This document shows, in pieces, positions 7,082 to 25,695 of a stretch of DNA of 64,000 nt (position 1 is its first letter; the number at the start of each line of letters is the position of its first letter). A program made the translations under genes and the position numbers. Where the stretch lies: positions 124,001 to 188,000 of the forward strand of contig NW_020290002.1 in NCBI RefSeq assembly GCF_003144195.1. The letters run 5' to 3'. This stretch comes from Ceraceosorus guamensis (lineage: Eukaryota > Basidiomycota > Exobasidiomycetes > Ceraceosorales > Ceraceosoraceae). Below the pieces are notes generated by a model. It made no database searches. It was not told where the DNA came from and worked only from the letters and a program-made list of their open reading frames with translations.

Positions 7082-8338
7082 CTTTTGCTGGGCGGAGCGG
7101 CTGCAGGCGGACGCGCCCAGACTCGAAATGAATAGCCGCATCAGAGTTCGGCGGTCGTGGTCCATGCAGGCGCGTACAGGGTGGCGGCACTCACACTGAT
7201 GAAATACGTCACGGAGGCTTCGCGCAGAACTCCCATCCGCACGTCTGCACACGCGTGTTTCCTGCCCACCTATGGACACACTTGAATTTTCGATCAGCCC
7301 TACCTCTCTCACCGCTTTACAACCTAGCTTCCCTGACACATCTGTCGGCCTCGCGCAGGCTGGGGCAACGATCTGCAATTCACACGACAGCCACAGCTCT
7401 CGAATTGACTCAATAAAGAACGAGTCGGACCCACGCACAACCGTGCGCGGCGCGTGCCTCACTGCTACGTGCGGCAGGACAATCGCCGGCGACGATGACA
7501 ACACCCTTGCCTACGTGAGTTAACCAATTACGTCTACGTAATTTGGGAGCCGCCCCGGCGGCTCCGCTCACGAATGCGGCCTGGCGACACATGTGGAATT
7601 GGTCGTGCCCAATACCTGCTTAGTTGAACGTGCTAGCGATACCCTCGCTATGCCTTTTCAAAAGTGCGGATCGCACTTCAGGGACTTTGGCATGCTCACC
7701 ACGGGTTTTGTGCGGTCATGCAAGTCGGATAGAGGCAATATGTCCTTTTCCAAATATACATGTGGCGCCAACATGCTGACTCTCCACTGGTCCCCTTTCG
7801 TTGGCACCGGTGGATAGTAGGGCTGAGTCGGCAAATGACTCTGCCTGCTGCGACTGGCCGGGATGCTGCTACGCTTGGCAGGAGAGAAGGGCCTGGATAG
7901 CAGGAATGGGCGTGTCGGCACACGACTCTGCCTGCTGCGAGTGACCTTGGGGGTACGACGCTCCGCGAGAGAGGGCCTGAGTATATGAGCACTGGCCCCA
8001 CCTCGAACCATCCTGCGAACGAGAATCCCGCCTGCGGCCCGTACTGTACGTTGCCGGCTTGGGGCGTCTCCCATCCCGCCGTCTACAAACGCTTCGACAT
8101 GCCTTGTCGCGCATCATATCCTCACGCCTCGCCGTAACCGTCATGATCTTGCTAGCCGCCCACGCCCTTTACGCCACCGAATGTCGCTCGATCATTGTAG
8201 ACACGACTCGACTTCCTGTTCAACCACATCACTTTGTTCTGCGGAAGTAACACTACGCTTCTCGCATTCTTTGCACCTCGCGGCGGGCCAACACGTTCAG
8301 TTTGAACGCCTCTCTACCCTGCACATCACAGCGCGAAG
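7082..8338. other. Intergenic interval upstream of the orphan cluster
   Basis: No gene is supported. A direct repeat sits here: a segment beginning TCGGCAAATGACTCTGCC (about 7828) recurs about 85 bp later as TCGGCACACGACTCTGCC (about 7914), each followed by TGCTGCGA and a GGCC/GACC end. The copy pair lies about 400 bp before the first Zn2Cys6-like gene and may be part of its promoter; that link is only positional. Confidence 0.45.
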
Positions 8339-9013
8339 ATGTCCTCCGACGACCCCCTTATTTTCAGAATCGACCACGTGAACACCGCGGCCTGGGTGGG
8401 AAATCACCGGTTCACGTCTGCCGCTGAGCACAGTGTCGGCGTCTACCTCCGAGTCGCCGGGGACCGCCAGGCGATCACCATCCTTGAGCACGACCGGCTT
8501 GGCCACACGAGTGACTTACCAGAAGATTGGCCGACCAGCTCGCCATACTGGCTATGGGGCTACCCAGTACACGAATGCTACGGCTGTACGAACACCGATT
8601 ATGCTTGCTTCATCAGCCCGGGGGCGGTATCCTGCAGCCGGTGCTTGAAAACGCATCAAGCATGCAACGCCAACAACTTCGCCATATGGCACTGGGACGG
8701 TGGCGTTGTACAGGCAGCGTGGGACGCGTTGGTAGGATACGTGGCACTGTACAACGCTCGGGTGGCCAGGATGGCATGGCCGCCCCCAACCTGTGGGTAC
8801 GCATTGCTGAACTCTATGGAAGGGATTCGTCGCCCACCGACAATCACCCACCAGACCTTCGCTGAGATACTTCGACAGGTGAAACCTCGCCTTTCGAGCA
8901 CGGAGCGCATGCTTCAGACTGGCATTCCAAGTCTCTCACTGAGCAGCGCTACCGACGAACAGGCTTCGAATCCCAGAGGCGGTCAACGCATTACATGGGA
9001 CGACCAGGCATGA
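8339..9013 (+). CDS. Orphan Zn2Cys6-like protein, paralog A
   Basis: Not a family I recognise. Single open exon of 224 residues. A six-cysteine cluster at C80, C83, C90, C99, C102 and C109 has spacing CX2CX6CX8CX2CX6C, which fits the general spacing of fungal Zn2Cys6 domains, and is followed at once by NANN. The basic residues normal between the second and third cysteines of GAL4-type DNA binders are missing (TNTDYA here). About 20 residues on comes the second shared motif, ALVGYVALYNAR then WP. No signal peptide or membrane segment is visible. It is the first of four + strand paralogs (8.3-14.4 kb) and has the most divergent N-terminus. DNA binding, zinc-mediated folding or an effector-like role are all possible; none is shown. 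Confidence 0.72.
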   Translation: MSSDDPLIFRIDHVNTAAWVGNHRFTSAAEHSVGVYLRVAGDRQAITILEHDRLGHTSDLPEDWPTSSPYWLWGYPVHECYGCTNTDYACFISPGAVSCSRCLKTHQACNANNFAIWHWDGGVVQAAWDALVGYVALYNARVARMAWPPPTCGYALLNSMEGIRRPPTITHQTFAEILRQVKPRLSSTERMLQTGIPSLSLSSATDEQASNPRGGQRITWDDQA

Positions 9014-9678
9014 CTCGCAAATTTGGGGCTGTCACTTGACGGCTGGCGGCTGCTCGAACAAGTTTGTTTCTCTTTTCTCGCTTTTCAATGAGGACTGCCT
9101 GCCCCTTGCTCTTCCGTATGAAGTCCACTTTTTCTGAAATTGAGGAGGACACATGCAGTACTCAAAGTATCCTCGATATGAATCATCTGTTTTCCTTACT
9201 CCACGACGGTGTTTTCTCTCGTCGAATGTCACGATGGTCAGCACCGCTGCCGCGTGGCCTGCGTGCACGAAGCGATGACCCTATTTCTCCCATGCGACAC
9301 CTCATGTCAATTAATCCTGACGAACCGTCCCTATGAAGCGACGCAAGACACCCTGTACCAGCCTCTACACCTCTCCCTCCCGCCAAATGAGGGCCACTGC
9401 ATTTGTTACCCACGTCGGCCCGTGAATCATGCTGGTCGGCCCATCACGAAATTATGCCCCTGCTCGCGCGACCAAATTACGCTACATGTAATTAGGATAG
9501 TCGTCCGGACACGACGGCAAACGATAAATAGGAGATGCGTTCCTTTCGTTTGGACGACACGCGCACATCAAGTATCCTCGCTTCATGATACATGTATCGA
9601 AGCCCCTCGACCTAATAAGTCGGCTCCTTTCCCTGTGCTGGTCAACCTCAACACCGATCATCATACTCCCAATCCAAC
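9014..9678. other. Spacer between paralogs A and B
   Basis: AT-richer than the flanking genes, with stretches such as TGAAATTGAGGAGGACA and ATTACGCTACATGTAATTAGG. Presumably the promoter of paralog B. No RNA gene or ORF with recognisable content. Confidence 0.4.
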
Positions 9679-10359
9679 ATGCCGCCACCTGCGTCTTCAA
9701 TTGTCAAACACGAAGAGGTCGTGCTTGCCTTGGCCAACATCGTTCTCCCCGATGCGCGACAGTGGTTAAGTGTTCAGTCTTTCCGCGATGGTCGGAGCGG
9801 TGACGCGGTCGCCTTCGTCCTCGACAAGAGTGCACAGAACGCTGCTGCTCCTTTGAACCGCGCGATTACCCCTCGGCGATACCCGAAAGCAAGCCAGCAA
9901 CACTACCCGGGCTCCGCCTTCTTGAGGTGCTGGCACTGCAGACTCTCTGGGGATAGCTGCGTCGTACCCAGGGATAGCACTCGCTGCGACTACTGTCTCG
10001 ATAGAGACCTCTGCTGCAACGCGAACCATCAGGTCCAATATTTTACCCATCCTACTCGCCGCACTGCAATTCTACATGCCCTGGTACAGTTCTCATACGA
10101 CTGGGATGCTCGTAATCGCGGGGTATGGCCACCGATGGTCCACGACCCTCGCGTACCGACCCGTCTTTTTGATCACGCGCGTGCGCCCTTCCTCAACGTC
10201 CCCGAACTCGAACGAGAAGTCCTCCAGAACAGCCTCACCACGCTCTGGCACTACACGCCTCCACTGCCAGAACGAGCTTCCAGCGCTGCACCACGGGCCC
10301 CCAGGAGCCCATTGGAAATCCGCCGCCGACTTGCGACTAGTCTACAACCAGGCCCATAG
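9679..10359 (+). CDS. Orphan Zn2Cys6-like protein, paralog B
   Basis: 226-residue single exon starting caacATGCC, the same start context as paralog D. Cysteines 84, 87, 94, 103, 106 and 113 keep the exact CX2CX6CX8CX2CX6C spacing, followed by NANH. The preceding segment GSAFLRCWHC closely matches GSAVLRCWQC of paralog D. The downstream shared motif reads HALVQFSYDWDAR then WPP. The C-terminus is proline/arginine rich with no recognised domain. The four paralogs differ over much of their length but hold cysteine spacing and the ALV/AR/WP motif, which argues for purifying selection on a folded core of about 80 residues. Function unknown. Confidence 0.74.
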   Translation: MPPPASSIVKHEEVVLALANIVLPDARQWLSVQSFRDGRSGDAVAFVLDKSAQNAAAPLNRAITPRRYPKASQQHYPGSAFLRCWHCRLSGDSCVVPRDSTRCDYCLDRDLCCNANHQVQYFTHPTRRTAILHALVQFSYDWDARNRGVWPPMVHDPRVPTRLFDHARAPFLNVPELEREVLQNSLTTLWHYTPPLPERASSAAPRAPRSPLEIRRRLATSLQPGP

Positions 10360-10829
10360 GGAGAGAACAAGGAAAGTACATGCGCTCGAAGCTCACATGG
10401 CCGTCGGGTCCGTCGTGTATCGTTGTCTTGGTCTGATGCCCTGCCCTCTCCTGCTCAGACTCCCGGCAAAAGAGTACGTGCGAGTCACGCTTCTCGATGC
10501 TTCTGCTCCTCGTTGTAAAGGGCAGGTCCCGATGCGGTTGGGAGACACTCTGGGGATACTCGCATGGGGATGGTCGCAGCTATCACTCACATCACCGAAA
10601 GCCTGCATATGGGGTTCCCTTTGACGAATTTATCCTTTTGGATGCCGGCCTACAGCGCGGCCAATGTGTGTGATCCTTTCGTAAGCTTCGGGAAGGGGCC
10701 AGTATCAAACTTGCGTGACGGTCTGTGTACGGCGTCATGGTTTGGGGAACTGAATTTATTCAAAAGTTAGCTTTCGAGTACAAAAAGTGAACGCGGCGAC
10801 ATTCGTAGCTTCGACTGCGACCGTCACCG
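10360..10829. other. Spacer between paralog B and a convergent orphan gene
   Basis: The + strand gene before and the - strand gene after converge here, so this should hold two 3' ends. A + frame continues open to 10624 in another phase, without recognisable content. Confidence 0.4.
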
Positions 10830-11390
10830 CTACTGGTACAGGTCGCGATAATAACGATGGATGACTTGGTATACTGGCCAACAATCACCCATATTCTGAG
10901 AATGACACACCCACCAAGTATTGAGTAGGCATCGAAGGTGCTCGTGGCTGCTAATCCAATGGTCGGCCCTCCACTCCGGGTTGGAATCCTGGCTGATGGC
11001 CGAATACAACCTCCCAAGTCTTTGGACCCAGATGGCATGATCATCATCGCCAGCCCATAGCATGAATGCGTCCGAAACATTCTCCAAAGCGTGTTGAGGG
11101 AAAAATGGCAGCTGACCGTTCTCGTCCCAGTCTTCAAGGTACTGCTCCACGCGAACTTTGACGGTTCGAGCGTGCTCTGACGCATTGCTGTTCCTCAGGA
11201 GTGCTGCCGCCTTGCCCAGTACATCCGGCAAAGGAAAGGATTCTAGCATCGAGCATATCTGGAACGCTCGTCGCACGCACGCTTGCTGGGCCTCTCTTCC
11301 CTCGGGGATGGGATCGAAGTTTCTCTCCCGAAGAAGATATACCCTGGCACCGCTCGCGAGAGTTATCAACATTCCTGTCATAATCGTCAT
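10830..11390 (-). CDS. Orphan alpha-helical protein, antisense to the cluster
   Basis: 186-residue open frame from an ATG at 11390. The translation is rich in Trp, Leu and acidic residues and reads as a natural helical protein (for example YLEDWDENGQLPFF and LLNTWWVCHSQN). No family is recognised and no signal peptide or membrane helix is seen. A second frame upstream on the same strand (to 11583) could be an earlier exon, but I found no clean splice pair to join them. Its length, orientation and a loosely similar ending (VIHRYYRDLYQ against EILRCYEENYA) suggest distant kinship with the - strand gene at 14889; that kinship is weak. It sits between paralogs B and C. Confidence 0.5.
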   Translation of the reverse strand: MTIMTGMLITLASGARVYLLRERNFDPIPEGREAQQACVRRAFQICSMLESFPLPDVLGKAAALLRNSNASEHARTVKVRVEQYLEDWDENGQLPFFPQHALENVSDAFMLWAGDDDHAIWVQRLGRLYSAISQDSNPEWRADHWISSHEHLRCLLNTWWVCHSQNMGDCWPVYQVIHRYYRDLYQ

Positions 11391-12134
11391 CCTCGGTCGT
11401 CAGCCTTGCTCCGCGTTCTCGGCTCATTCGCTCAACGAACTCACTTTTGATGTTTGTGCCAGCAGCCTCCAACTGGGAGAGAGTGTCTTGCGTGCTGCGA
11501 TATGACGACTGTCCCCGATTAACGTCCCTGTCAACGATGGTATTGTCAATGCCTACACCACACTCTCTATTCACGCATAACACACTCTGTAACGCACTGT
11601 TTTCTCTAGCTCATCCGTGATGATAGGGTGGTTGACGTGACGGTGGCCCTCGAATCAATGCACCCATCAGCCTGGGGAACACTGAGATCTAACACCGTGC
11701 ACGCTCATCTTCCCTGGGCGACCTTTGATCCACAGTGAGACTAGGTGTGGCATCGGGCGCCCTACACGAGCAAGACATCGCACACGGAACCTGACAGTCG
11801 AGTGCTAATCTATCTGATCCAATTTGAACGCCTTCCGTCACGTACTCTGTCAGCACCGTCAACCTGACACGCGCCTGGTTCACGACCGCCGCCGATCTCT
11901 GGCGCAGCCACTCGTCTCGCCAACCCGAGGGACATGATGGGAAATGTTCGATCGCTCACCGGACCTGAAAGAACCTGAGCCACCTCTATCGGAAAAAAAG
12001 GGATCACTGCACACGTCGAACCTTCATGAACAATTGACATCCTTCTACCAGGGGGCCCGTATGACGCTGACCTCTACTGAGCACTTGTTGATACATCAAG
12101 CCGTCTACCTCAACCGTCGTCAGAAAATCCAACG
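11391..12134. other. Spacer upstream of paralog C
   Basis: Divergent promoter interval between the - strand orphan gene and paralog C. Open - strand frames at about 11391-11583 and 11810-12040 might be 5' exons of the orphan gene, but no model could be supported. Confidence 0.4.
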
Positions 12135-12872
12135 ATGCCGTCCATAACAAAAATTGATCACCTCACCGTCCAGCAATGGCTTGGCAAGCTAACCTTTGAG
12201 CCGTTAGCCTACATTTTCATGGGCTGTTACGTCAAGACTGGCGGACCCAATCCCGCAGTTGCGTTCGTGGACAAGATGGCGGACAACCGCGGACTGTCGA
12301 GCGGTCAACCAAAGCGCTGGCCACGTCAGTTGCCCATCAGCATCCGGGGTAGAGCCGTCCTGTCATGCTTTCACTGCATGGCAATGGGACACCCATGCTA
12401 TACGAACTGGAACACCGAAAAATGTCAACATTGCGACGAATGGGGCTTCACTTGCAACGCCAACAACCAGCTGATCTGGTACGAGCATCGTGACATGCAA
12501 AAGGCATGCTTCAATGCGCTCGTGGGCTACGTCGCAAGTTGCAACGCTAGGCTGAACAATATTTGGCCAGTCCCGCCTGAAGCTGAAGCGTACCTTTGCA
12601 CTCTCGATGTGGTCGCTCCACCCACGGCGCTGCGTACGGAGGCGATGAAGGACCTCCTCCTTAAGATCTGCCACCCAACAGGCCGCATTGGATACAACAA
12701 ATATGCCACGAAGGTCAGCCTCAAGTGCATGCTACCACTCACGATATATGATCCTACGTTCGTGCCTGGAGCTGACCCTGTCCGGTCAGAAGAAATCGCG
12801 GAAGAGATCCACCAAGCGCGTCGAGCTCACTATAAAGAAACGACCACTCAGTCTGCCAGACTCGGGGGGTGA
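12135..12872 (+). CDS. Orphan Zn2Cys6-like protein, paralog C
   Basis: 245-residue single exon beginning M-P-S. Cysteines 78, 81, 88, 97, 100 and 107 show the identical CX2CX6CX8CX2CX6C spacing, followed by NANNQ. An N-terminal match to paralog B (DAVAFVLDK in B, PAVAFVDKM here) shows the homology reaches about 45 residues ahead of the cysteines. The shared motif downstream is NALVGYVASCNARLNNIWP, very near that of paralog A. The C-terminal 90 residues are polar and unrecognised. The loop between the second and third cysteines is MAMGHP, again lacking the basic residues of a classical DNA-binding Zn2Cys6 finger. Confidence 0.74.
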   Translation: MPSITKIDHLTVQQWLGKLTFEPLAYIFMGCYVKTGGPNPAVAFVDKMADNRGLSSGQPKRWPRQLPISIRGRAVLSCFHCMAMGHPCYTNWNTEKCQHCDEWGFTCNANNQLIWYEHRDMQKACFNALVGYVASCNARLNNIWPVPPEAEAYLCTLDVVAPPTALRTEAMKDLLLKICHPTGRIGYNKYATKVSLKCMLPLTIYDPTFVPGADPVRSEEIAEEIHQARRAHYKETTTQSARLGG

Positions 12873-13397
12873 CGAATGCGTGTTCGTTTGCCGGGCGCAG
12901 CTCGCCCTGCTGGCTCAGACGTATGGGCCCTTCTTCCCCTGCAATGCTACTGCTTATCGGCGCTGGGCGTCGCTGCGCCCCCTCGTGCAAGCAACCATCT
13001 TGCGCACCTCCTCGCAGCAATTCCTTACTTTCTGACCTCACACGAATTGTCTCTCTCTCTCGACGCATGGTAGCTGTAAAATGTCCCCGTGCTAGAAACA
13101 CCCCCGTTTGCTTCTTCCCTCCCGTTCGCCCAACTCCCTAGAGTGCCTCTCCCCTTGTGTCCTCTCACCTGCTGTTTTTGATTTGCGACGAGTGAGAGTG
13201 CTGGCCGCTCAGCCGTACCAACGGCGGTCCTTCCATACGCCCATGCGTGTGAAATCCACCGCCGCCCGCCGCTCTTCGCGAGCGGGCACCGGTGCCTCCG
13301 CGAAGGTCTCCCCCGGCTGGGTCACTTATAAACGCTTCTTCCCCCGCACGTACGTGGTTGCTGAATGGACCATCCAAACACATCGATCTCTGTCAAC
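12873..13397. other. Spacer between paralogs C and D
   Basis: Contains a short CTCTCTCTCT run near 13050 and a GC-rich stretch at about 13255-13320 ending in a CACTTATAAACGC TATA-like box (about 13321-13333), 65-75 bp before the paralog D start. Confidence 0.45.
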
Positions 13398-14378
13398 ATG
13401 CCTCGCACGTCCAGCGACAAAAGTCAGCCCTCTGCTCTCGACATCGTGCGGAGCTATTCTGTCCTACCGCTCTCTGTAGCGTCGCGAATCGCTTCAGGCG
13501 TAGTGGATTCTCGCGCTTACACAGAAATGCAAATCATGTACCTCAACGAAGGTAGTTTCTTTTCTGTCTTCGTCATCGACCGACACGCAGTTGCGCCGAT
13601 AAGCTACACTCGCATGAGACCTTTCAATGCCAGTCACTATCCTGCCATCACCTTGCAAGCGATCCAAGGGAGTGCCGTCCTGAGGTGTTGGCAATGTCGC
13701 GTCACGGGGGCCATGTGTCAGATCCTCGAAGGCGATACAAAATGCATTACTTGCTGCGACCGACGCGTACGCTGCAATGCAAACAATTATTTGCAAATCC
13801 ACCACGCTGCTGACATCAAAGCTGCACTACTACCGGCTCTTGTTCAGCACTGCCACAACTGGCATGCCCGTCTTCGCGGGGAATGGCCACCTAGGACATA
13901 TGATATTCTCAGTAGCCATGGCCTCCGGGACGTCATTCCTCCACCATTCGTCGACACGAAGCTACTGGGTGAAATGGTTGATTACGAATTTCCCTGCGAG
14001 GGACAGCAAGCGTTACGAGCACCATGGTCGCCGGGGATGCCGAACATTGTCATGGACAGCACTCAGCTGCTGGTGCCTGCGGGCCCAAGCGACAACCAGT
14101 CCACCTTGAGACCTTTCAACGAGCTGATGGGAGCCAGTGCCACGAATGGCGGCTCCCTCCCTCGGAGCAACCTGTCACCCCTACAGCCTGGTGAGCTGCT
14201 GTTTGAGGGTGACTTATTGATGGTCGTTACCGAATCGGATTACGACACGGAGGGAGATCACGACGCGCTTCGAAACGAATCAGATTACGACACTGAGGGA
14301 GATCATGACGTGCTTCAAAACGAATCAGGTCACGACACTGAGGGAGAGCACGACGTGCTTCAAAACGGGGGAAATTGA
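13398..14378 (+). CDS. Orphan Zn2Cys6-like protein, paralog D, with acidic repeats
   Basis: 326 residues from the ATG at 13398. An in-frame ATG at 13365 also exists; 13398 is preferred because it gives the M-P start and caacATGCC context of paralog B. Cysteines 97, 100, 107, 116, 119 and 126 keep CX2CX6CX8CX2CX6C, then NANNY. Downstream motif: PALVQHCHNWHAR then WPP. It is about 100 residues longer than its sisters at the C-terminus, ending in three near-perfect 15-residue acidic repeats of the form NESDYDTEGDHDVLQ encoded by 45-bp units (about 14230-14364). The acidic tail could act as a charged interaction or activation segment; that is inference. Upstream TATA-like box at about 13323. Confidence 0.74.
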   Translation: MPRTSSDKSQPSALDIVRSYSVLPLSVASRIASGVVDSRAYTEMQIMYLNEGSFFSVFVIDRHAVAPISYTRMRPFNASHYPAITLQAIQGSAVLRCWQCRVTGAMCQILEGDTKCITCCDRRVRCNANNYLQIHHAADIKAALLPALVQHCHNWHARLRGEWPPRTYDILSSHGLRDVIPPPFVDTKLLGEMVDYEFPCEGQQALRAPWSPGMPNIVMDSTQLLVPAGPSDNQSTLRPFNELMGASATNGGSLPRSNLSPLQPGELLFEGDLLMVVTESDYDTEGDHDALRNESDYDTEGDHDVLQNESGHDTEGEHDVLQNGGN

Positions 14379-14888
14379 TCGCCGAGCAGGGCTCTGAGGG
14401 GTCACCACTCTCTTCACGATCAGATGTCGGTGCATCAAGCGATCTACAGAGCGAACTTCCTTGCCCTGGACACGAGGTCGACCACGGTAGGCCCCAACTC
14501 ACCGAGGCTTCTGGATCCGCCCCCATCTGAGAAAGGGAAGGCATAGTCCACCGCCTCCGAGGTTACGACCATTGGCCTGGCTGTTCGTCCTCACCGACAC
14601 TCCTCGCCGACACAAGCGCAGACCACAGTAGACCACACATGTTCGCGGGAGAAAGAATTGAATGTTACAGTCCATCGGGATATAAGAACCCCGTTGGCAC
14701 TTCTTTTGATCTGAGGGCTATGCGGGGGTGGAATGCCTCGCTCGTGTGAGAAAGCCAGGGAAGTCAAGCTGCGCTGTACTGACATGATTACCCGATCACA
14801 ACGTGCATGAGCATGCACGAACACCCCCTTTTGACACGCGTTACATTTGAGATTTCTTGACTATTCTTAATTTGCCTCCCCTCCCCGA
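14379..14888. other. Spacer between paralog D and a convergent orphan gene
   Basis: Holds the 3' flanks of the + strand paralog D and the - strand gene ending at 14889. No further gene or RNA recognised. Confidence 0.4.
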
Positions 14889-15837
14889 CTAGGCGTAATT
14901 TTCTTCATAACAACGTAGGATCTCGGGATAAAGAAACACAGCGTGCAGCTCGCAAATTTCGATCACATCCATAAGGATGCGCTCGCGTTTCTCCCGGCTC
15001 TCATACTGCGCCTCTTCGTTCCATGCCCATCTCCAACATTTTGCTGCCACCGACCCCAACGACTTTGTACATAGCCCCCTTTTTGCAAAGATAGGGAACG
15101 CCCTGCACAGCTGGTCTATAGTCACCAATGGGGCTGTGAGCTGGCCCGGATGGGTGAAGCTCGAAAGTATAGCTGACGCTTGCTGAACGATGCCCTCCTC
15201 ATCCATCTCTTCCCCCACCGCTACGCACAACTGTCCACCCAACCAATCCAGCTCTGTAGGATGGACACCCTCCAGCGCACACACGAGGAAAGCGTCCTTC
15301 ACTAGGGAGTATTGCTGACGCATCGGCGGAGGCCAAATCGACCTATCTATGGGGTACCCAAGTGCGGTTTCGAACGGGATAAAGCTCACTGTCCCTCGTC
15401 GAATGCCAGTGGCCCCCACATGTAAGCTACGCCTCGACTGATGCTGACCAACGACCTGCACTCACTTGTGTGACCTTAGCTTTCCGTCCTAGGCTTGTCG
15501 TGCCAGCAAGACGTAGATGACAGCAAGTGAATGTAAACACCACCTGATTTCGGAATGACCACCGAATCGCCACTGGAACTTGAGATGGAGGTTCGGCGCA
15601 CCAAGTGGCAAATCTCCTGAAGAACACTCCACGTGCCTTCCATTCCTCCTGACCACCCAGGAGCGCCATTGTGGATATGGGATCTTCTTTGAGCACCCAG
15701 CGTAGAAAGTTGAACTGGTACCGGCAAGCTGGACAATATATCTCACCTGCTTGTATAGGCGACGGCCAGGCACAAAAATGTCTGCACAGAATGCTCTGTC
15801 TCCGGCCTCGAGAGTAACATCTCCGCCGACCACTCAT
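14889..15837 (-). CDS. Orphan two-exon protein with a CPAC motif, next to the LINE 5' end
   Basis: Two overlapping open frames suggest a two-exon gene. The first exon runs from the ATG at 15837 to about 15470; its residues include YCPACRYQ and a Trp/Arg-rich segment. The second, ending at 14889, encodes a helical protein of about 165 residues (IPFETALGYPIDRSIWPPP onward). A GTGAGT donor near 15469 and an ACAG acceptor near 15394 could join them. The first exon has a colinear relative at about 27050-27430, where the same frame is interrupted by several stops (for example Trp codons of this copy replaced by TAG and TGA), so this copy is the more intact one. Family unknown. It overlaps the region shared by both LINE units, so it may belong to the element or be a host gene caught beside it. 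Confidence 0.45.
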
Positions 15838-17040: not shown

Positions 17041-17206
17041 ACAAATCTGTTGCGACCACCTGATCTTGCTCCTCCCCAGCGAACTCCCTTTGCTCTGCTA
17101 CAGGCCTCACAGCAACTCCGTCCAAAACAAGAGCTCCCGTCTTCTACTCAACGCCCCCCTGCCCCGCTAGTCTCACCTCGGCAACCCTAAGCCCTGCCAA
17201 AGGCTC

Positions 17207-17269
17207 GTGAGTAGCTGCACCATCACAACCAACCAGGTGACCACCTCGCTTACATGCTCTTCCGTACAG
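17207..17269 (+). other. Putative 5'UTR intron of LINE ORF1
   Basis: Donor GTGAGTAG at 17207, branch-like CTTAC at 17249-17253, acceptor TACAG ending at 17269, three bases before the ORF1 ATG. The second LINE unit has the same donor, the same CTTAC and the same 17-base spacing from branch A to AG. Confidence 0.5.
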
Positions 17270-17272
17270 GCA

Positions 17273-19042
17273 ATGGAGGATGAAGACTCCAACCGCCAGG
17301 TCGCCTATGATGACCAGGGTCAGGACGAGTATCTTGATGAACAGCAACAGCTCTTAGGCAACATCTTCGGCAAAGATGTAGATGAGGACATGCTTGCAGA
17401 AGAAACAACAAGCATCATCGAATCCATCCACAGTGGTCGCCAAGGGGTAGATAACGGCCAACTCGAAGTGGACGAACTCGGGGAGGACGAGCCCGGAGAG
17501 AACAACCCGCTTGCCCACAAACTCGGAGAAGACGGCATGCTTGGCCACGAACCCGTTGAGGACGACATGCTTGGTCAAGGCGGGGTCGATGGGGCACCAA
17601 TGGCATTCACGGACCCAATCCCAAGAGGTTTGATGGTGAGCCCCTCTCCTCCTCCTGATCGGGAAACTGTGGATGAAGCTGCTGCAGCAGAGGAAGCGAG
17701 GATCCAGGCTGCTCTGGACGCCGCCAAACGTTACCTATCTGCTGAATGGCTCTACAACGCCTGGACACGCGACAACACCCCACCAGCCTGGCGCGATGCC
17801 CTTACAAGCCTCTTAACAGCGAATCTGGAGCCTGGTTTCAGCAGATATGTCTTCCCCATGGGCAAGGCGAGACTTGGAGTCGATCCGGATGTTCGTGGTG
17901 ACATCCAAACGTCGATTGAAACCTATGTTAGATTCAGCGGACTCTCTGCCTCCACTGTCCGGCTATGGAGGGGTGGCCCCATGATCCTGGGGGCTGATAT
18001 CAAGTTTGCGGCAGGAACCGACATCGACCCCTCCCTGTTTAGAATCGACAACCACGAAAAGAACCTTCACCTGGAGTGGGACAAAACGTGCCTCTCACTA
18101 GGAGAAGGCATGATGGTAATCGGGCTCGATAGCGTGCTAGACGCGTCCCTCCGAGATAGGGATGGTCTCATCAAGGCGATCAAAGATCAGCTGTCTGCTC
18201 AAGGATATGCTCTGCGCTGCCTCTGGGCAATCTATCTGAATGTACGGGGCGAGATCGAGGGACCCCCCAGATACAACGACAGACTGCTCGCAGTGGTCGA
18301 GTTGGTTGGAGAAGAGAGCAAGATACACGGATTCATGAACCTCCCTGGTTCTCCTCGCTGCTTCGTCTCCTACCATGGGCGTGGATACTGGTGCACCAGC
18401 TGCATGTGGAGAAGAAAAGACCAACATCGGCAGACTGAAGCATGCAAGGAGGCAGAAGCTGAGCGGCGCAGGATCGCTCGCGCCGTAAAAGCAGTCCCCA
18501 AGCAAGAATCCAGCATCGACCCCGTCCCCCCGATGAGAGGACACAGTATAATACTCGGTCCAAGAGCTAGCAGAATGCGGGCCTCGGCAACTCCAGCGCC
18601 AGTAAGACCTCGAACGGACTCGCCACCGCCACCTCCTCCGGTTCGGGAAGTAGCATTGTCAATGCCACCACCAACAGTCCCAGCCTTCTTTCGCAGGGCT
18701 CCTGCTGGTTATCAAGATCGCGACCAACCAGCAATCACACGTCGGACTGAACCTCTTCCTTTTAGGTCTCGAGGAGACTCCAGGGCATCCAGCGTCCTCA
18801 GCTCTGCGCCGTCAATCACGGAGGACGAATCAGCAATGCGCCCTGCACAAGGGCCCTCGAATATTGCCCTCGCGGCAGGCTTTCCAGTTAAACATAAGCG
18901 TCCTGTCTCCACTCTCGGACATGACCACTCTGTTGCAGGCCCCAGTGGCAAGCGACAGAGTGTGTCGCGTACCGCATCTCCAGAGATCCAAGTTTCCCCG
19001 CACGTAGTCAAGGCCACCCCACCGAAGGGGCCTCAGAAATGA
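17273..19042 (+). CDS. LINE ORF1 protein with zinc knuckle (copy 1)
   Basis: 589 residues from the ATG at 17273; the frame stays open upstream to a GTG at 17207, but that segment looks like an intron. The acidic N-terminus (residues 1-140) is followed by a conserved central domain starting near SAEWLYNAWTRD and including GPPRY and LLAVVELVGE. Then comes a CX2CX7HX5C knuckle at C374, C377, H385 and C391, a basic stretch, and a proline/serine-rich tail. By analogy with LINE ORF1 proteins it should coat element RNA. Its TGA overlaps the ORF2 ATG as ATGA. About 55-60% identical by eye to the ORF1 at 28223. Confidence 0.85.
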   Translation: MEDEDSNRQVAYDDQGQDEYLDEQQQLLGNIFGKDVDEDMLAEETTSIIESIHSGRQGVDNGQLEVDELGEDEPGENNPLAHKLGEDGMLGHEPVEDDMLGQGGVDGAPMAFTDPIPRGLMVSPSPPPDRETVDEAAAAEEARIQAALDAAKRYLSAEWLYNAWTRDNTPPAWRDALTSLLTANLEPGFSRYVFPMGKARLGVDPDVRGDIQTSIETYVRFSGLSASTVRLWRGGPMILGADIKFAAGTDIDPSLFRIDNHEKNLHLEWDKTCLSLGEGMMVIGLDSVLDASLRDRDGLIKAIKDQLSAQGYALRCLWAIYLNVRGEIEGPPRYNDRLLAVVELVGEESKIHGFMNLPGSPRCFVSYHGRGYWCTSCMWRRKDQHRQTEACKEAEAERRRIARAVKAVPKQESSIDPVPPMRGHSIILGPRASRMRASATPAPVRPRTDSPPPPPPVREVALSMPPPTVPAFFRRAPAGYQDRDQPAITRRTEPLPFRSRGDSRASSVLSSAPSITEDESAMRPAQGPSNIALAAGFPVKHKRPVSTLGHDHSVAGPSGKRQSVSRTASPEIQVSPHVVKATPPKGPQK

Positions 19043-22000
19043 GCCCCGACAATAAGGTGGTGGGTGTGTGCCTTGCCAGCACCTACCGTTTTGCCACATG
19101 GAACGCTCGCTCCATCTCGGCAAGAACACCTGGTGAGATTCACAAGATCATGCGTGATCCTCCTACAGTTGTTTTCCTCCAAGAAACGCACGCCCCCGAC
19201 TTATGTCCCTCCAGTTATCTACAGTCTTCTGAGCGTCAGCCGCTAAAGTTCCCTGGTGCCTCGACTCTACCCAATGTTCCCAGTGGTGTGCTCACACGCG
19301 ATGCTGGCATCCTCTTGTTCGCACCCTTTGACAAGCTCCCCTTTTGTGTGCTTTGGCACGACGAACGTTTCCTAGGTATCCGACTCAAAAGTAAGGCGCC
19401 CTTCTTCAATGTGGCGCCTTTCGATCAATCTGTGTCTCCTGCTGATCAACTTACTCCCAGAATTGATGACGACTGTGACCCTTCTTACTATCTTGACTTG
19501 TGGTCCTTCCATGGTCCGCACACTGATCGAGAAGCATTCTGGCGCGATATCGCAGGCCCACCCTTCCTCGAACATACATCCAGCTCCAGACCATGCTTTG
19601 TGGGAGGTGATTGGAATGCGTGGGCAAGCGACTTTGATGCTTACAACGCGACATATAACGCACGAAGCTGGGAACCCATCGCTGCCATGCTTGATGCTGC
19701 TAATCTCACAGACGCTTTCAGGCATCTGCGCCCCATGGCTCGCGAGTACACCAGGTACACTATGGCGACAGGCGGGCTAAATGGCGGGACAAATGCTCAC
19801 CTGCGATCAGCTAGGCGCCTCGATAGTGTGTGGGCTCCAATCCGGCTCCTCACGGCTGATCTCGTGACCAAAGCGACCTTCGAGTGGTCGAGCTCAGATC
19901 ACCGTGTTGCATCGATTACATGCCACAGCTCGCCAACCATTGACCCAAGCCGAGGGCGTGGAGTCTGGCACTTACACGCAGGAGTGTGGGAGGACCCGCT
20001 GATGAAGATTGCGCTATCGCAATGGACACAGGACGTCGGGGTTGGCAATGCGTCCCCTCTGACTAGTGCAAATGCGAACGTGGCAGTGAGCTCCTGGTTT
20101 GCGGTAAAGGAACGATTGCGACACGTAACACATCACCTCTCTCTCGACATTGGCAAAAGACAGGCAGCGCTTTCTAAGCAGGTCACGGCGTTGACAAAAC
20201 AGCTTGAGCAGCTTGACCTGGCTCACAATCGTGTGCACCGGGAGCTTATGCCTAGCATGGTGCACAAACTTGATGAAGCCCTCAAAGCCGAGGCAGCACA
20301 ACTGACACTTGCGTCACGAAGCAGACTGGAAGCAGAATCTATACGACCCACATCCTGGCTTGCCTCAGCCAACAGGTCTGCCTCGCACGCTCCGGTACCT
20401 GAACTGCTTCGGCCTGATGGGAGCTATGCCACTAGCGCAAAGGAAAAGACTGCCACTGTGTGCAAGCACTTCCAACAGGCGTACGCTGCTCCGCCACCAC
20501 ATCCTGAACGAGCCGCTATGACGAAGGAACTGCTTGATGCGATTCCGGACTCACGTAAACTCACGCCAGCAGAGTCAACCACGCTCTCCAAACCCTTTAC
20601 TGCGGATGAGATGCACGCGGCGCTGCTCCAAATGTCCAAGGACTCGGCACCTGGACTTGATGGACTGACATGGCCCGTATACAATGCCACCTCTGCTGCG
20701 ACCATGCCACGGATTGCGAGACTAGCCAATGCTCTCCTGTTGGGTGCGGCATTGCCCCCTGGTGAGCCACGATTACGCGGTGTGCTTCTGCCCAAGAAGG
20801 GCGATAAGAGGGAGATCTCCAACTACCGTCCGCTGTCGATTGCCAACATGGATATCCGACTCATCAGTCGAGCGCTGTCCATCCGTCTCCAAACAGTTAG
20901 CCAGAAACTGCTGCCGTGGAACCAGGCAGGCTTTGTGCATGGCCGCTCCACGATGGACATTGGCATTCTACTGCAGGGTGTGGCTGACTTCCAGCACATG
21001 CGGCAAGCAGAGCCTCGACGACTCTGGGGGAGCACATCCCGTTTTCCGCGTAATCCCGAGAACACCAATGCGCAGCCTACACGCTTCTTTGTGATCTTGC
21101 TGCTCGATTTTATGAAGGCGTACGATAGGGTGCTGAGAGAGTGGTTGATGGCAGTACTGCGATGCTATGGTTTCGACGAAGCCTACTGCAACCTTGTGGG
21201 GGCGCTCTTATACACTGCTACAGTGAGCTATCTGGTCGAGGGCCATCTGACTGCCGCTGTGCACCTGCTGGCAGGCGTGCTGCAGGGTGCGCCCGACAGC
21301 TGTATCACGTTTGAGCTTAGCATGCAGCCTCTGCTGGATCTATTTGAGCTGTACGGCATCGGTGTACTCTTGGAACACACCACAGGCAAGACGGCGGTCA
21401 TTGCATTTGCCGACGACGAGGCGGTGCTCATTGACGTCTCGACGAGGGAGAATTGGGACCTCTACCAGCGTGCACTCAAGCAGTACGAGATTGCCTCGAA
21501 TGCCAGACTCAACCCAAACAAGAGCTCGTACTTTTGCGTGCATGCAAATGCGACTTCTAGTTTTGCGATCCCTGACTACCTCGTACAGTCAGGCTATCAG
21601 CGTGAGGGCACGCACATCACCCACCTGGGCCATCCGATTTCCATTCAGGAGGCTGTCGTACCATCCAGTTTTGAGGCTAGAATCCTCGCCATCTCTCGAC
21701 ACCTCTCCTGCATCCGCCAAGTCCACACCACCTTACACACAAGAGTGCGCATCCTCAACTCGCTTGCGCTCGGCAAACTCTGGCATGCTTTCAGCCTTTG
21801 TGGCCTGCCACCACGATACTCCCGCACTGTCCGGAACACCATCACTTCCTTCCTCTGGCACGGGAAGCGCCCTTGGGTCAAGTGGGAGATCATGATCACG
21901 CCGACGGACCGCGGTGGATTTGGACTGCTGGACCCGTACATCATGGCACTTTCGTTCTCGGCTGCGCTACTCGCCAAGCATGTGCTCAAGGACACGGTGC

Positions 22001-25000
22001 TGGGCAAGTTCCTTCGGGAAGGGCTGCACCACTTCATCACGCATCCTGGATACATGGCCTCGACGCCTGCCTCCCTACTGATCAGGCGGGGAAGCGAGTG
22101 GCGGAGGATGAGCATTCCAAACACCGCACAGCTGAGTATGTGGGGAAGGATACTCCGTGTACTGTGCGTGCTTGGGTTGCAAGTTCGACCAGATATTGAC
22201 TGGCGGGATGTGGACATTCATGAACTGCTTGCGCTGCCTTGGTTCACGCCCGCACTCAATGTCCACAAGACAAGGCCAATCAAAGAGCAGCAGATACGAC
22301 GTCGCCTCTCTCCTTCCCCTGACTTGCCGCTGCAGCCAGCAACACGGCAGGCAACACCGGATCCTGCAAGCAGAGACCCACGTCCACGCAACATTGGTCG
22401 CAACTCCATCGAGTCGGCGCACACTTCAGTGCTAGAATTCTTTGGCGTCTCTGACCTGGGAATATTGGCGCTCCTTCGTGCCAAGAACCTCACCTTTGCT
22501 GACATTTTGTGGTGGACAGATGCTAGAGGCACGTCGTATGCTGAGGGCTCCCGCCTCGCCTCTGGTAACATCAGCCCCCCCTTCCCTCGGGCCCTTCGGC
22601 ACCACTGGCCAGCCTGGCGGAACAGGCCATACCCGTTTGGCCTTGCTGAGCTGAGCACGAACACGGTTGAGGATCTGTACAAGGGGTATAACCCTGTGAC
22701 GCGCTTATGGAGCTCCCTCTGGAAGAGATTGCCGTGGCCGGTCAAGGACCAGATCCAGCGCCTAGCCAAGGAGGATTTGTACCAAGTCTCTGCCGACCAA
22801 TCCACCTCGAAGCACACCATCCCGCATGTCCGGCCATTCAAATGGGAACCAACGGAATTCAGGCTTCCGTGGCACCACCTTCTCCTTGGTGGCCGCAAGT
22901 GGCATGAGGTCACTGTGAGTAACACTCGCCAGACGATCCTGGCTCTGGCGGCAGCCAAGGACCATGTCGAACCAGACTGGCCTGACCTGCCTGACGGTGT
23001 GAATTGGAAGACGATCTGGAGGGACTTTCGTGGGTGCAGCATGCCCCCTGGTCCGTACGAAGCAGTACATCTCTTCCTTTTGCGCCGAGCCTGGGTCTCT
23101 TCTACAGGACCTGCTCATCGGCCCGAAGAGCACATGTCCATGTCTGAGAGAGTGCGTGAGCTCCTGCCTGACGATGAGGAGTGCGCAGGTGACTTTTTAG
23201 ACCTCATTGAGGCCCACCCAGATGACACCATGCCCGATCACTATAACCGTTTCTTCACGGCTGGGCTGGATGCAACTTTGACAAAGGAAGCCAAGGAGAG
23301 AAAGGCTGCGATAGCCAGGCTTCGTGCGCAGTACCTACACGACCTCCAGAACCCGCCGGGTCCAGAGAATTTGGACGATCTCTCCATCTATGCCGAGTCT
23401 GGAGCCCGCGAGCCCTCTCCTCCTCCTCCTCCAAGCAGCCCACCACCTGCTCCAACGATCTACCACAACCCCAGTACCCTCGTGGGCAAGGTCATGAGCA
23501 TGAGCCCAGATATTGCTGATGTTGATGTGTCCGAATACGTCCACTTCAGTCTTTCGTCTCACTCTGCAGCAGGAGCCTCCCAAACGGGGGTCGAGGGCCA
23601 GGGTGCCTCAGCATGGACTCACTTTGACCTATCCCCCGCAGCTCGTGAGCAACTGTGCCCGCATCCCTTGTTGAATGATGGCGCCGTTTTCCGGACGACT
23701 GATGAGGCTGGGCTGGGTGGCCAGGCGGCTCCTTCACCCGCTTCCGACCCACCAAATCCAGCGGACATTCCTGGGTTCTCTCTCACCGCAAGCACGCCCG
23801 ATGCATTGAGGCAGAGGGATTGGGAGGGAGTTGACCCGATCCACCGCACACCTGGCGGTGGCACAGATGATATCGAGCGTGCTCTCGCCGCGCTGAGTGT
23901 GGGCACATCCCGTGCGAGCCAACAGGATTGGGGAGGAAGGGACTTGTTTCGGCGGACGCCTAGCACGGAAGGTTGGGAGGTAGTTGACCCGGTCCACCGC
24001 GCACCTGGCAGTGGCACAGCTGATACCGAGCATGCTCTCGCCACGCTGAGTGTGGGCACACCCTGTGCAAGCCAGAAGGGTTGGGAAGGCACAGACCTGT
24101 TTCGGCATACACCTAGCACGGACATGTCTGCTGCAACACCACCGCCACATGGCCAGACTTGTGGAGTAGACCAGCGACCACGGGACCTCACCTGGGCTGA
24201 ACTTCGCCAGCAATACCCTTGGCCATCTAGGCATCCCAGTGAGCGCTACACGATCGAGATGGGGGTGCTGCGCCCTACAAGTCGGGCAAGGGCAACCCCA
24301 GCAGTTCCCACCAACCGCAGCCCTGTCTCCCGTCGTACGCTCTCAGGAACAAGGAGCACAACCACACCCAAGATCAACTATGCCAATCTGGATGCTGCTC
24401 TCGGTCCAGAAGGGCTTGGTGAACCTGCAGAAGAAGAGGCCTGGTCGGAGGGCTCTGCACCAAGCGATGCGGCCAGTACTCGGCCTACTGGAGGAGGGAA
24501 GAGGACGAAGAAGAGGGGAAGCACACAGCAGCGCTCCCCACATCAAGGGAAGAGCACAAAGACTAGACGTGAACAGCAACGCAGGCGCAAGAAAGAGCGC
24601 AAACGCAAGAAGAGGGAGGGCAAGCGGCGTGCCCGCTCCCCATCCTCAAGTCGGAGTCCTGCCCATGCCTCACATCGGAGGCAGCCTGCGCCGGACCACA
24701 CCAAACTCTACTCGTCCAAAATCAATGCTGCAGCGTACGAGGCTGCACTGGCCTCGTGCATACCTACCAAAGCACGGCGCCAACGCAGCTCCACTACCTC
24801 GTGGAGTTCGGAGTCTTCTGCTGCAGGCAGTACAGCAGACTCTGAAGGCGCTACGCATATCAACAGCCCGCCAGCGTCATCATCACCTGCACCAGGTGAC
24901 GATCAACATCCTGTGGACCCGGATGCAGAACACATGCCCGCTCCTGACCGCCCCAGTACAACTAACCCCTCCCCCCTCTCTCCTTCCCCCGCAGGTACCA

Positions 25001-25695
25001 GGCACAACGAAAGCCACGGCAAAGCAGCACTCACGAGTCAGGAGATTCGCAATCTCATATCAAACTCTGGTCAGACGCCGCAACGATTCCACCTCACGTT
25101 GCGCACTGCCAACCTCGCATCCCAGGATGCAGCTCTTCAAAGCGCGCATGCAGTTGACCTTTGTCCTGCAGGTTGCGCTGACGTGCACGACAGTGTACAG
25201 CACGGCTACGTACAGTGTCCCGCAGTTCAGAAGGTGTGGTCTGCTGCCTGGCCTGTACTCCAGTCGCTGCTCTCGACATCGGTAGCACTGCCTCTCCCTG
25301 TGCAGTGCCACCACGTCCTCACCTCTTGGAGAAATCCTCCACTCTTTACCAAGCAACAACATCCTCGAGTTGTCTTGTGGCGCAACGCCGTCATCACCTA
25401 CCTCCGCAATAGGAGGCACGTGCAAATTGCTGCTGCCCGACAAGCTGGCACGCATGCAATGTTCACATTTGCTGATGCAACCACTGGGGTTGCGCGCATC
25501 CTTCTGCAGCTTCTGCACCACCTGCATCAACGGTCCGACCAAAGCTCTTCGGCTTTCTCACAAAAGTGGATCAACAACGGCACCTTTGCTACCTTGCAAA
25601 AGAACAAAATTGTTCTTCGGGAACCTCCTGTTTGGGCGAGTGCCTCGAGCCTGTCTCGGCACTCGTCACCATCAGCGTCCAACTCGACCTCCTGA
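19039..25695 (+). CDS. LINE ORF2: APE endonuclease and reverse transcriptase
   Basis: 2,218 residues, very long for the class. Endonuclease motifs are complete: ATWNAR (N22), QETH (E49), GDWN (D191, N193) and SDH (286-288). Reverse transcriptase motifs: NYRPLSI, AGFVHGRSTMDI, DFMKAYDRV (D690), LQGAP and FADD (790-793). A thumb-like segment WHGKRPWVKW follows. From about residue 1455 to 1990 lies a low-complexity spacer with proline runs, two copies of a roughly 60-residue repeat (WEGVDPIHRTPGGG type, 1590-1705) and a Lys/Arg-rich block (about 1815-1880) that could act as a nuclear signal. The C-terminus has Cys2042, Cys2046, His2050/2055 and Cys2060, like the zinc motif found after many LINE RT domains. 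All catalytic residues are present, so it looks functional. Confidence 0.93.
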   Translation: MSPDNKVVGVCLASTYRFATWNARSISARTPGEIHKIMRDPPTVVFLQETHAPDLCPSSYLQSSERQPLKFPGASTLPNVPSGVLTRDAGILLFAPFDKLPFCVLWHDERFLGIRLKSKAPFFNVAPFDQSVSPADQLTPRIDDDCDPSYYLDLWSFHGPHTDREAFWRDIAGPPFLEHTSSSRPCFVGGDWNAWASDFDAYNATYNARSWEPIAAMLDAANLTDAFRHLRPMAREYTRYTMATGGLNGGTNAHLRSARRLDSVWAPIRLLTADLVTKATFEWSSSDHRVASITCHSSPTIDPSRGRGVWHLHAGVWEDPLMKIALSQWTQDVGVGNASPLTSANANVAVSSWFAVKERLRHVTHHLSLDIGKRQAALSKQVTALTKQLEQLDLAHNRVHRELMPSMVHKLDEALKAEAAQLTLASRSRLEAESIRPTSWLASANRSASHAPVPELLRPDGSYATSAKEKTATVCKHFQQAYAAPPPHPERAAMTKELLDAIPDSRKLTPAESTTLSKPFTADEMHAALLQMSKDSAPGLDGLTWPVYNATSAATMPRIARLANALLLGAALPPGEPRLRGVLLPKKGDKREISNYRPLSIANMDIRLISRALSIRLQTVSQKLLPWNQAGFVHGRSTMDIGILLQGVADFQHMRQAEPRRLWGSTSRFPRNPENTNAQPTRFFVILLLDFMKAYDRVLREWLMAVLRCYGFDEAYCNLVGALLYTATVSYLVEGHLTAAVHLLAGVLQGAPDSCITFELSMQPLLDLFELYGIGVLLEHTTGKTAVIAFADDEAVLIDVSTRENWDLYQRALKQYEIASNARLNPNKSSYFCVHANATSSFAIPDYLVQSGYQREGTHITHLGHPISIQEAVVPSSFEARILAISRHLSCIRQVHTTLHTRVRILNSLALGKLWHAFSLCGLPPRYSRTVRNTITSFLWHGKRPWVKWEIMITPTDRGGFGLLDPYIMALSFSAALLAKHVLKDTVLGKFLREGLHHFITHPGYMASTPASLLIRRGSEWRRMSIPNTAQLSMWGRILRVLCVLGLQVRPDIDWRDVDIHELLALPWFTPALNVHKTRPIKEQQIRRRLSPSPDLPLQPATRQATPDPASRDPRPRNIGRNSIESAHTSVLEFFGVSDLGILALLRAKNLTFADILWWTDARGTSYAEGSRLASGNISPPFPRALRHHWPAWRNRPYPFGLAELSTNTVEDLYKGYNPVTRLWSSLWKRLPWPVKDQIQRLAKEDLYQVSADQSTSKHTIPHVRPFKWEPTEFRLPWHHLLLGGRKWHEVTVSNTRQTILALAAAKDHVEPDWPDLPDGVNWKTIWRDFRGCSMPPGPYEAVHLFLLRRAWVSSTGPAHRPEEHMSMSERVRELLPDDEECAGDFLDLIEAHPDDTMPDHYNRFFTAGLDATLTKEAKERKAAIARLRAQYLHDLQNPPGPENLDDLSIYAESGAREPSPPPPPSSPPPAPTIYHNPSTLVGKVMSMSPDIADVDVSEYVHFSLSSHSAAGASQTGVEGQGASAWTHFDLSPAAREQLCPHPLLNDGAVFRTTDEAGLGGQAAPSPASDPPNPADIPGFSLTASTPDALRQRDWEGVDPIHRTPGGGTDDIERALAALSVGTSRASQQDWGGRDLFRRTPSTEGWEVVDPVHRAPGSGTADTEHALATLSVGTPCASQKGWEGTDLFRHTPSTDMSAATPPPHGQTCGVDQRPRDLTWAELRQQYPWPSRHPSERYTIEMGVLRPTSRARATPAVPTNRSPVSRRTLSGTRSTTTPKINYANLDAALGPEGLGEPAEEEAWSEGSAPSDAASTRPTGGGKRTKKRGSTQQRSPHQGKSTKTRREQQRRRKKERKRKKREGKRRARSPSSSRSPAHASHRRQPAPDHTKLYSSKINAAAYEAALASCIPTKARRQRSSTTSWSSESSAAGSTADSEGATHINSPPASSSPAPGDDQHPVDPDAEHMPAPDRPSTTNPSPLSPSPAGTRHNESHGKAALTSQEIRNLISNSGQTPQRFHLTLRTANLASQDAALQSAHAVDLCPAGCADVHDSVQHGYVQCPAVQKVWSAAWPVLQSLLSTSVALPLPVQCHHVLTSWRNPPLFTKQQHPRVVLWRNAVITYLRNRRHVQIAAARQAGTHAMFTFADATTGVARILLQLLHHLHQRSDQSSSAFSQKWINNGTFATLQKNKIVLREPPVWASASSLSRHSSPSASNSTS

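Follow-up and report, generated by a model that had tools for sequence, protein, structure and literature searches.

Zn2Cys6 proteins form one of the large families of fungal regulators, and their fold is generally taken as a sign of DNA binding, with zinc clusters making up ~20% of basidiomycete regulators (PMC5415576). In Pleurotus ostreatus, type I zinc-cluster proteins have the spacing CX2CX6CX8CX2CX6C, and an arginine at motif position 5 and a lysine at position 8 are conserved in several types (PMC7295025). PacX of Aspergillus nidulans, a protein of 661 amino acids (aa) with homologues within Leotiomyceta, has an N-terminal coiled coil and a consensus-fitting zinc cluster towards its C-terminus, and protein partners are discussed as a possible mechanism (PMC4832277). 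A further kind of cysteine-rich fungal open reading frame (ORF), the CxC clusters, is found near KDZ or Copia transposable elements, with 44 and nearly 60 copies in two Pleurotus genomes (PMC7641404). Here we describe a family of Zn2Cys6-like proteins encoded by four adjacent genes of Ceraceosorus guamensis, in a 64,000-nucleotide stretch of contig NW_020290002.1 (positions 124,001 to 188,000) that is referred to below as the window.

The six cysteines of this family are spaced compatibly with the Zn2Cys6 domain (PF00172) of Gal4, Put3, Leu3, Ppr1, AlcR, Pho7 and Hap1, and identically to those of the Pleurotus type I clusters. Unlike the genuine domains, the family has its cluster in the middle of the protein, a nearly neutral first loop, a NAN[N/H] turn after the last cysteine and a conserved ALV..AR..WP block. 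Compared with the Pleurotus clusters by their description, no family member has lysine 8, and three of the five also lack arginine 5 (PMC7295025). A cluster placed away from the N-terminus is shared with PacX, which differs in its length, its coiled coil and the fit of its cluster to the consensus. As with the CxC clusters, cysteine-rich frames here lie near transposable elements, but six copies were found instead of dozens.

The gene array and its two types

The original prediction, made from the letters of the DNA, described four plus-strand ORFs that share an exact cysteine spacing directly followed by NAN[N/H] and then by ALV..AR..WP. These are present as described, and a fifth feature distinguishes the last gene:

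8339..9013, plus strand: gene A, type I, 224 aa; six-cysteine core at 8576-8665
9679..10359, plus strand: gene B, type II, 226 aa; six-cysteine core at 9928-10017
12135..12872, plus strand: gene C, type I, 245 aa; six-cysteine core at 12366-12455; weak Zn_clus match
13398..14378, plus strand: gene D, type II, 326 aa from its likely start; six-cysteine core at 13686-13775
14231..14365, plus strand: three 45-bp direct repeats, unique to gene D, that encode its acidic tail

All four ORFs are uninterrupted and, among six-frame stretches of at least 60 aa, they give the only matches in the window to CX2CX6CX8CX2CX6C, one per ORF. The looser pattern CX2CX6CX5-12CX2CX6-8C returned the same four window frames and also fits a further member, copy E, on another contig (C145), while the exact spacing did not occur in frames of at least 30 aa in 20 mononucleotide-shuffled windows. 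Cys6 is directly followed by NANN in A, C and D and by NANH in B; in the alignment of A to D, ALV comes 16 residues past this turn and is followed by NAR, DAR or HAR and then by WP. The cluster lies within residues 78–126 in these proteins.

Gene D most likely starts at 13398 and not at 13365, which would give 337 aa, because B, C and D then all begin with Met-Pro, B and D share caacATGCC, and the entry in the protein database is 326 aa long. Gene C is absent from that database, which contains A, B and D of the same genome, perhaps owing to a different gene model. Five other ORFs of the same genome were used to train a codon model, scored in bits per codon, under which the annotated frame was the highest of the three forward frames in each of A, B, C and D; one reverse frame of gene B scored slightly above its annotated frame (0.005 versus -0.055). 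The coding signal of A to D is modest (-0.06 to 0.02), compared with 0.04 for ORF1 of a nearby long interspersed nuclear element (LINE), -0.05 for a velvet gene, 0.20 for a P450 gene and 0.21 for a P4-ATPase gene used in training; two decoy frames (-0.29 and -0.24) both fell below A to D.

Searching the 23.8-Mb genome by tblastn with A to E as queries gave place counts that are lower bounds and put the family at no fewer than six places: the four window genes and two places on C145. Two weak matches with an expect value (E) of 0.09 stayed outside this count, one, containing a stop, on contig C98 and the other, which is short, at C145 1544-1624, where the second C145 member ends. The best window partner is always of the same type (A–C at ~1e-22 and B–D at ~1e-23), and within-type core identity is 31% for A–E, 35% for A–C, 50% for C–E and 40% for B–D. 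We read these relations as two types, type I comprising A, C and E and type II comprising B and D. The genes had been called a tandem array; four adjacent genes are indeed found, but on this typing they do not form a simple tandem: their order is I-II-I-II, which is what duplicating a unit of two genes would produce.

The cores of A to E bear marks of protein-level constraint. Codon position 3 showed the lowest conservation in every one of the 10 pairs, and the six cysteine columns are invariant in all five members. By the Nei–Gojobori method (NG86), the nonsynonymous distance (dN) was smaller than the synonymous distance (dS) in every pair with a computable dS (6 of 10; dS 1.56–5.3), a ratio that is read for its sign only since synonymous sites are saturated and four pairs gave no computable value. 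Crude simulations of neutral decay to ~40% aa identity introduced a mean of 5.3–7.7 stops per ORF; zero stops were seen in 0.3% (A), 2% (B), 0% (C) and 0% (D) of 300 runs each, and all six cysteines were retained in 0.08% of 1200 runs. Because position 3 is least conserved, dN is below dS and neutral decay seldom spares the ORFs or the cysteines, A to D look like constrained proteins. With the motif in 4 of 4 ORFs, the proposed family holds up as a real one, and the dN/dS near 1 that had been named as evidence against it was not seen, the values lying below 1 in the six computable pairs, though saturated. The fast evolution proposed along with it is not supported by the same comparisons, on which the divergence is old and not a recent burst because synonymous sites are saturated.

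Relation to genuine Zn2Cys6 domains

None of the four proteins reaches the cut-off of the Pfam model Zn_clus (PF00172), which was listed for C only, with 11.4 bits where 21 are required. Pfam listed neither a fungal transcription factor companion domain nor a CxC-type model for A to D at E up to 10; CxC-type models are presumably present in that database. A match of A to the Tax protein of human T-cell leukaemia virus (12.5 bits versus 27, E 0.1) was taken as chance. In the same genome, 51 Zn_clus matches were found at E up to 1, of which 46 lie over the cut-off, four of them only with neighbours in frame. Twenty of the 51 were taken as a comparison set; the pattern identified a domain in 19 of them, and the remaining one was dropped. 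A profile built from the 19 domains scored them at 41–56 bits and the family members A to E at 5.3–12.1 bits. When the members were shuffled with their cysteines preserved, the real score was matched by 289 (A), 51 (B), 64 (C), 18 (D) and 39 (E) of 400 shuffles. Because four of five members score within their shuffles, the cysteines are, at the level of sequence, what the family has in common with genuine domains, with a hint of more for D.

This result would also suit zinc proteins with a non-nuclear role, such as RNA or protein binding, whose spacing is convergent and which are not homologous to Zn_clus. Such proteins would be expected to lack a Pfam match over the cut-off, as observed, and the family alignment found no PDB entry by sequence at E up to 10. 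We nevertheless consider convergence unlikely: the family has two CX2CX6C modules joined by a linker of the usual length, D scores slightly above its own shuffles (18 of 400), and the top fold matches, described below, are to Zn2Cys6 domains only.

The loop between Cys2 and Cys3 sets the family further apart. It holds no lysine or arginine in A, C and E and one in B and D, whereas the 19 genuine domains carry a mean of 3.5 (range 1–5), with one such residue in 2 of 19. Basic residues after Cys2 had been described as absent, which is correct for the loops of A and C; B and D keep an arginine just after Cys2 and so retain part of the basic loop.

Structure prediction of the D core, which was of medium-to-low confidence (mean predicted local distance difference test score, pLDDT, of 60, with 61–77 in the cluster blocks), placed short helices directly after Cys1 and Cys4, as in the Zn2Cys6 domain. 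A full-length model of C (pLDDT 43) was left out of the fold search. Foldseek comparison of the D core with the PDB returned the domains of Put3, Leu3, Pho7, AlcR, Ppr1, Gal4 and Hap1 at ranks 1–12 of 29, all as weak matches, and a second look with VIA-align listed 14 entries of the same kind as these top ranks, all of which, including 1cld, we take to be Zn2Cys6 structures. Retention of the zinc fold, as originally proposed, is likely, the fold matches being specific but weak. The proteins are best called Zn2Cys6-like, a name that leaves them outside Zn_clus membership because their Pfam scores fall below the cut-off and their first loop is poor in basic residues.

It is rather unlikely that the genes encode Zn2Cys6 transcription factors of the ordinary, sequence-specific kind that have simply diverged and bind DNA through other residues, such as the arginine after Cys2 in B and D, basic residues in D's second loop or the surroundings of the cluster. 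The X8 spacing is an ordinary one, seen in 8 of 66 zinc-cluster proteins of P. ostreatus as type I (PMC7295025), the top fold matches are DNA-binding domains, and B and D have kept an arginine after Cys2. Four papers came up in a full-text literature search for the spacing, and of these the Pleurotus one (PMC7295025) has the X8 form. Such factors would, however, be expected to score over the Zn_clus cut-off (0 of 4 do) and to carry a companion domain, more than 0–1 basic residues in loop 1 and an N-terminal cluster, whereas here it sits mid-way in short proteins.

Searched with a family profile at E up to 10, a collection of 5.8 billion proteins that is mostly not fungal returned three matches, namely A, B and D themselves, and is weak evidence for the absence of relatives; single-sequence searches of protein collections, likewise mostly not fungal, returned nothing for C and only itself for D. 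Among viral contigs, the family alignment gave 24 pattern matches, none confirmed, and C, the only query run against plasmids, had no match there. Of the papers listed in literature searches for lineage-specific, degenerate or non-DNA-binding zinc-cluster families, none names the family in its title or abstract. It is so far known from this genome only, and the collections searched hold few fungal proteomes if any. The suggested lineage specificity agrees with the lack of relatives outside the genome, and an absence of homologues, which together with a lack of transcription had been set as a result that would count against the family, was seen outside the genome in a search that is weak for fungi.

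The second locus, its flank and the neighbourhood

Two further members and a sequence preceding the genes are found at a second locus, on contig C145:

C145 1065-1565, minus strand: copy E, type I, C-like match
C145 1555-2133, minus strand: frame of a type II-like copy, B-like match
7560..7814 of the window, no strand assigned: 255-bp flank, with a second copy upstream of the C145 pair at C145 3196-3450

Among the window frames, C145 1555-2133 matches B only at E 1e-4 (30.5% over 118 columns; 32% by tblastn). It contains a 144-bp stretch (C145 1743-1886) that is self-complementary at 89% identity, resembling a miniature inverted-repeat transposable element, and that by eye falls in the cysteine region. 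Copy E is closest to gene C (43%), carries NIN for NAN, AII for ALV and AK for AR, and has no ATG-started frame across the family region in the ORF listing. In our judgement both C145 members look like pseudogenes. Because the flank precedes the genes at both loci, C145 appears to carry an old duplicate of the array's left part, consisting of flank, B-like gene and C-like gene; gene A as a tblastn query found nothing further there.

Telomere-type CCCTAA repeats lie at C145 1029-1060, close to the end of E. At the junction of repeat and E, a 31-bp self-complementary stretch (C145 1061-1091) overlaps the end of E. The outermost 10 kb at either end of the window contig (C7) lack any run of at least two TTAGGG units and so give no support for a subtelomeric position of the window array.

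The two flank copies are 73% identical (194 of 267 columns), and at E 1e-5 the flank is found at two places in the genome only, the two family loci. It was the sole nucleotide match at E 1e-3 when the window was compared with four 10-kb segments of C7 and with 30,000 bases from C145. With the C and E coding cores at 63, 66 and 37% at codon positions 1, 2 and 3, the flank is better conserved at the nucleotide level than the coding cores. Its alignment has several non-triplet gaps, every frame of the 381-bp pieces contains stops, and Rfam gave no match; folding z-scores were -2.0 and -3.1 for the two strands of the window copy and -0.7 and -1.1 for the C145 copy. With a gene and a structured RNA both considered, we lean towards reading the flank as non-coding, but one minus frame remains, open for ~66 codons in both copies with a like ending (..CDPH[F/S] stop), and the flank may be a small coding remnant. 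Its conservation could come from constraint, from later exchange or from such a remnant.

Other features of the neighbourhood are as follows:

17171-25695: LINE with an open ORF1 and a reverse-transcriptase frame of 2256 codons
28163-29803: second LINE ORF1 copy, 54% identical
10830-11390, minus strand: open frame within the array, one genome place
14889-15461, minus strand: open frame beside the array, one genome place

The two minus-strand frames had no Pfam match at E 0.01, and the idea that they form an interleaved second family was rejected (best E 0.02 over 29 residues). The array had been placed beside LINEs; a LINE and a second ORF1 copy are nearby, but ~3–15 kb downstream. Relatives of the reverse transcriptase occur at two or more other genome places at E 1e-5. 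A farnesyltransferase beta fragment has its best match, among 17 PDB sequences, in the Cryptococcus enzyme, which makes a basidiomycete source likely. A role of the LINEs finds no support: LINE sequence had no match to the array in self-comparisons, and what the outside copy shares with the array's surroundings is the 255-bp flank, which is not LINE sequence.

These surroundings bear on whether the genes belong to an undescribed mobile element or were domesticated from one, in the manner of the KDZ- and Copia-tied CxC clusters of mushrooms. A second locus with a common flank on another contig, the LINE, the hairpin insert in one copy and the telomere-type repeats are compatible with such an origin, and in Pleurotus, ORFs with CxC5 and CxC6 cysteine clusters are found together with Copia elements (PMC7641404). 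We regard it as quite improbable given six copies whose cores are 22–50% identical (five compared), a flank at two places only, no CxC-type Pfam match and no confirmed viral relative; moreover, the sole inverted pair of at least 20 nucleotides within 7500-15000 is 21 nucleotides long, 86% matched and placed around gene B.

A possible role for the paired proteins

The reading that we put first, tentatively and short of even confidence, is a lineage-restricted family with a Zn2Cys6-like fold in which canonical DNA contact is altered or lost and types I and II are possible partners. Each protein would comprise an N-terminal region of ~75–95 aa, the six-cysteine cluster, the NAN[N/H] turn and a predicted helix from ALV..AR ending in WP. 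The six cysteines would likely bind two zinc ions in a Gal4-type fold. The lysines and arginines that touch DNA normally sit in a loop that is nearly neutral here, so the cluster plausibly would no longer make canonical DNA contacts and would serve instead as a scaffold or make altered contacts. The change of function proposed at the outset is possible. Types I and II, kept as pairs, would act as partners, as their paired order suggests. The proteins are probably intracellular because they have no membrane-like stretch (highest 19-residue hydropathy mean, 1.24), and their site would most likely be the nucleus, as regulators or cofactors. The acidic tail of D, a protein with a net charge of -17, could speculatively serve as an activation region.

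Three observations weigh against this lineage-restricted paired family. Between-type core identity (22–34%, six pairs) overlaps slightly with within-type identity (A–E 31%, C–D 34%), the ~66-codon minus frame is open in both copies of the flank, and an inverted pair surrounds gene B. A more specific version, in which I and II form a two-protein module whose fold was kept but moved from DNA reading to another task, with the flank as its own control or target element, is in our estimate very improbable.

If the preferred reading of a Zn2Cys6-like family with altered DNA contact is true, a cysteine frame kept for a long time without most of the contact residues would provide a test of the roles that this fold can have besides DNA reading, and the paired order would give a clear prediction, a partnership between type I and type II.

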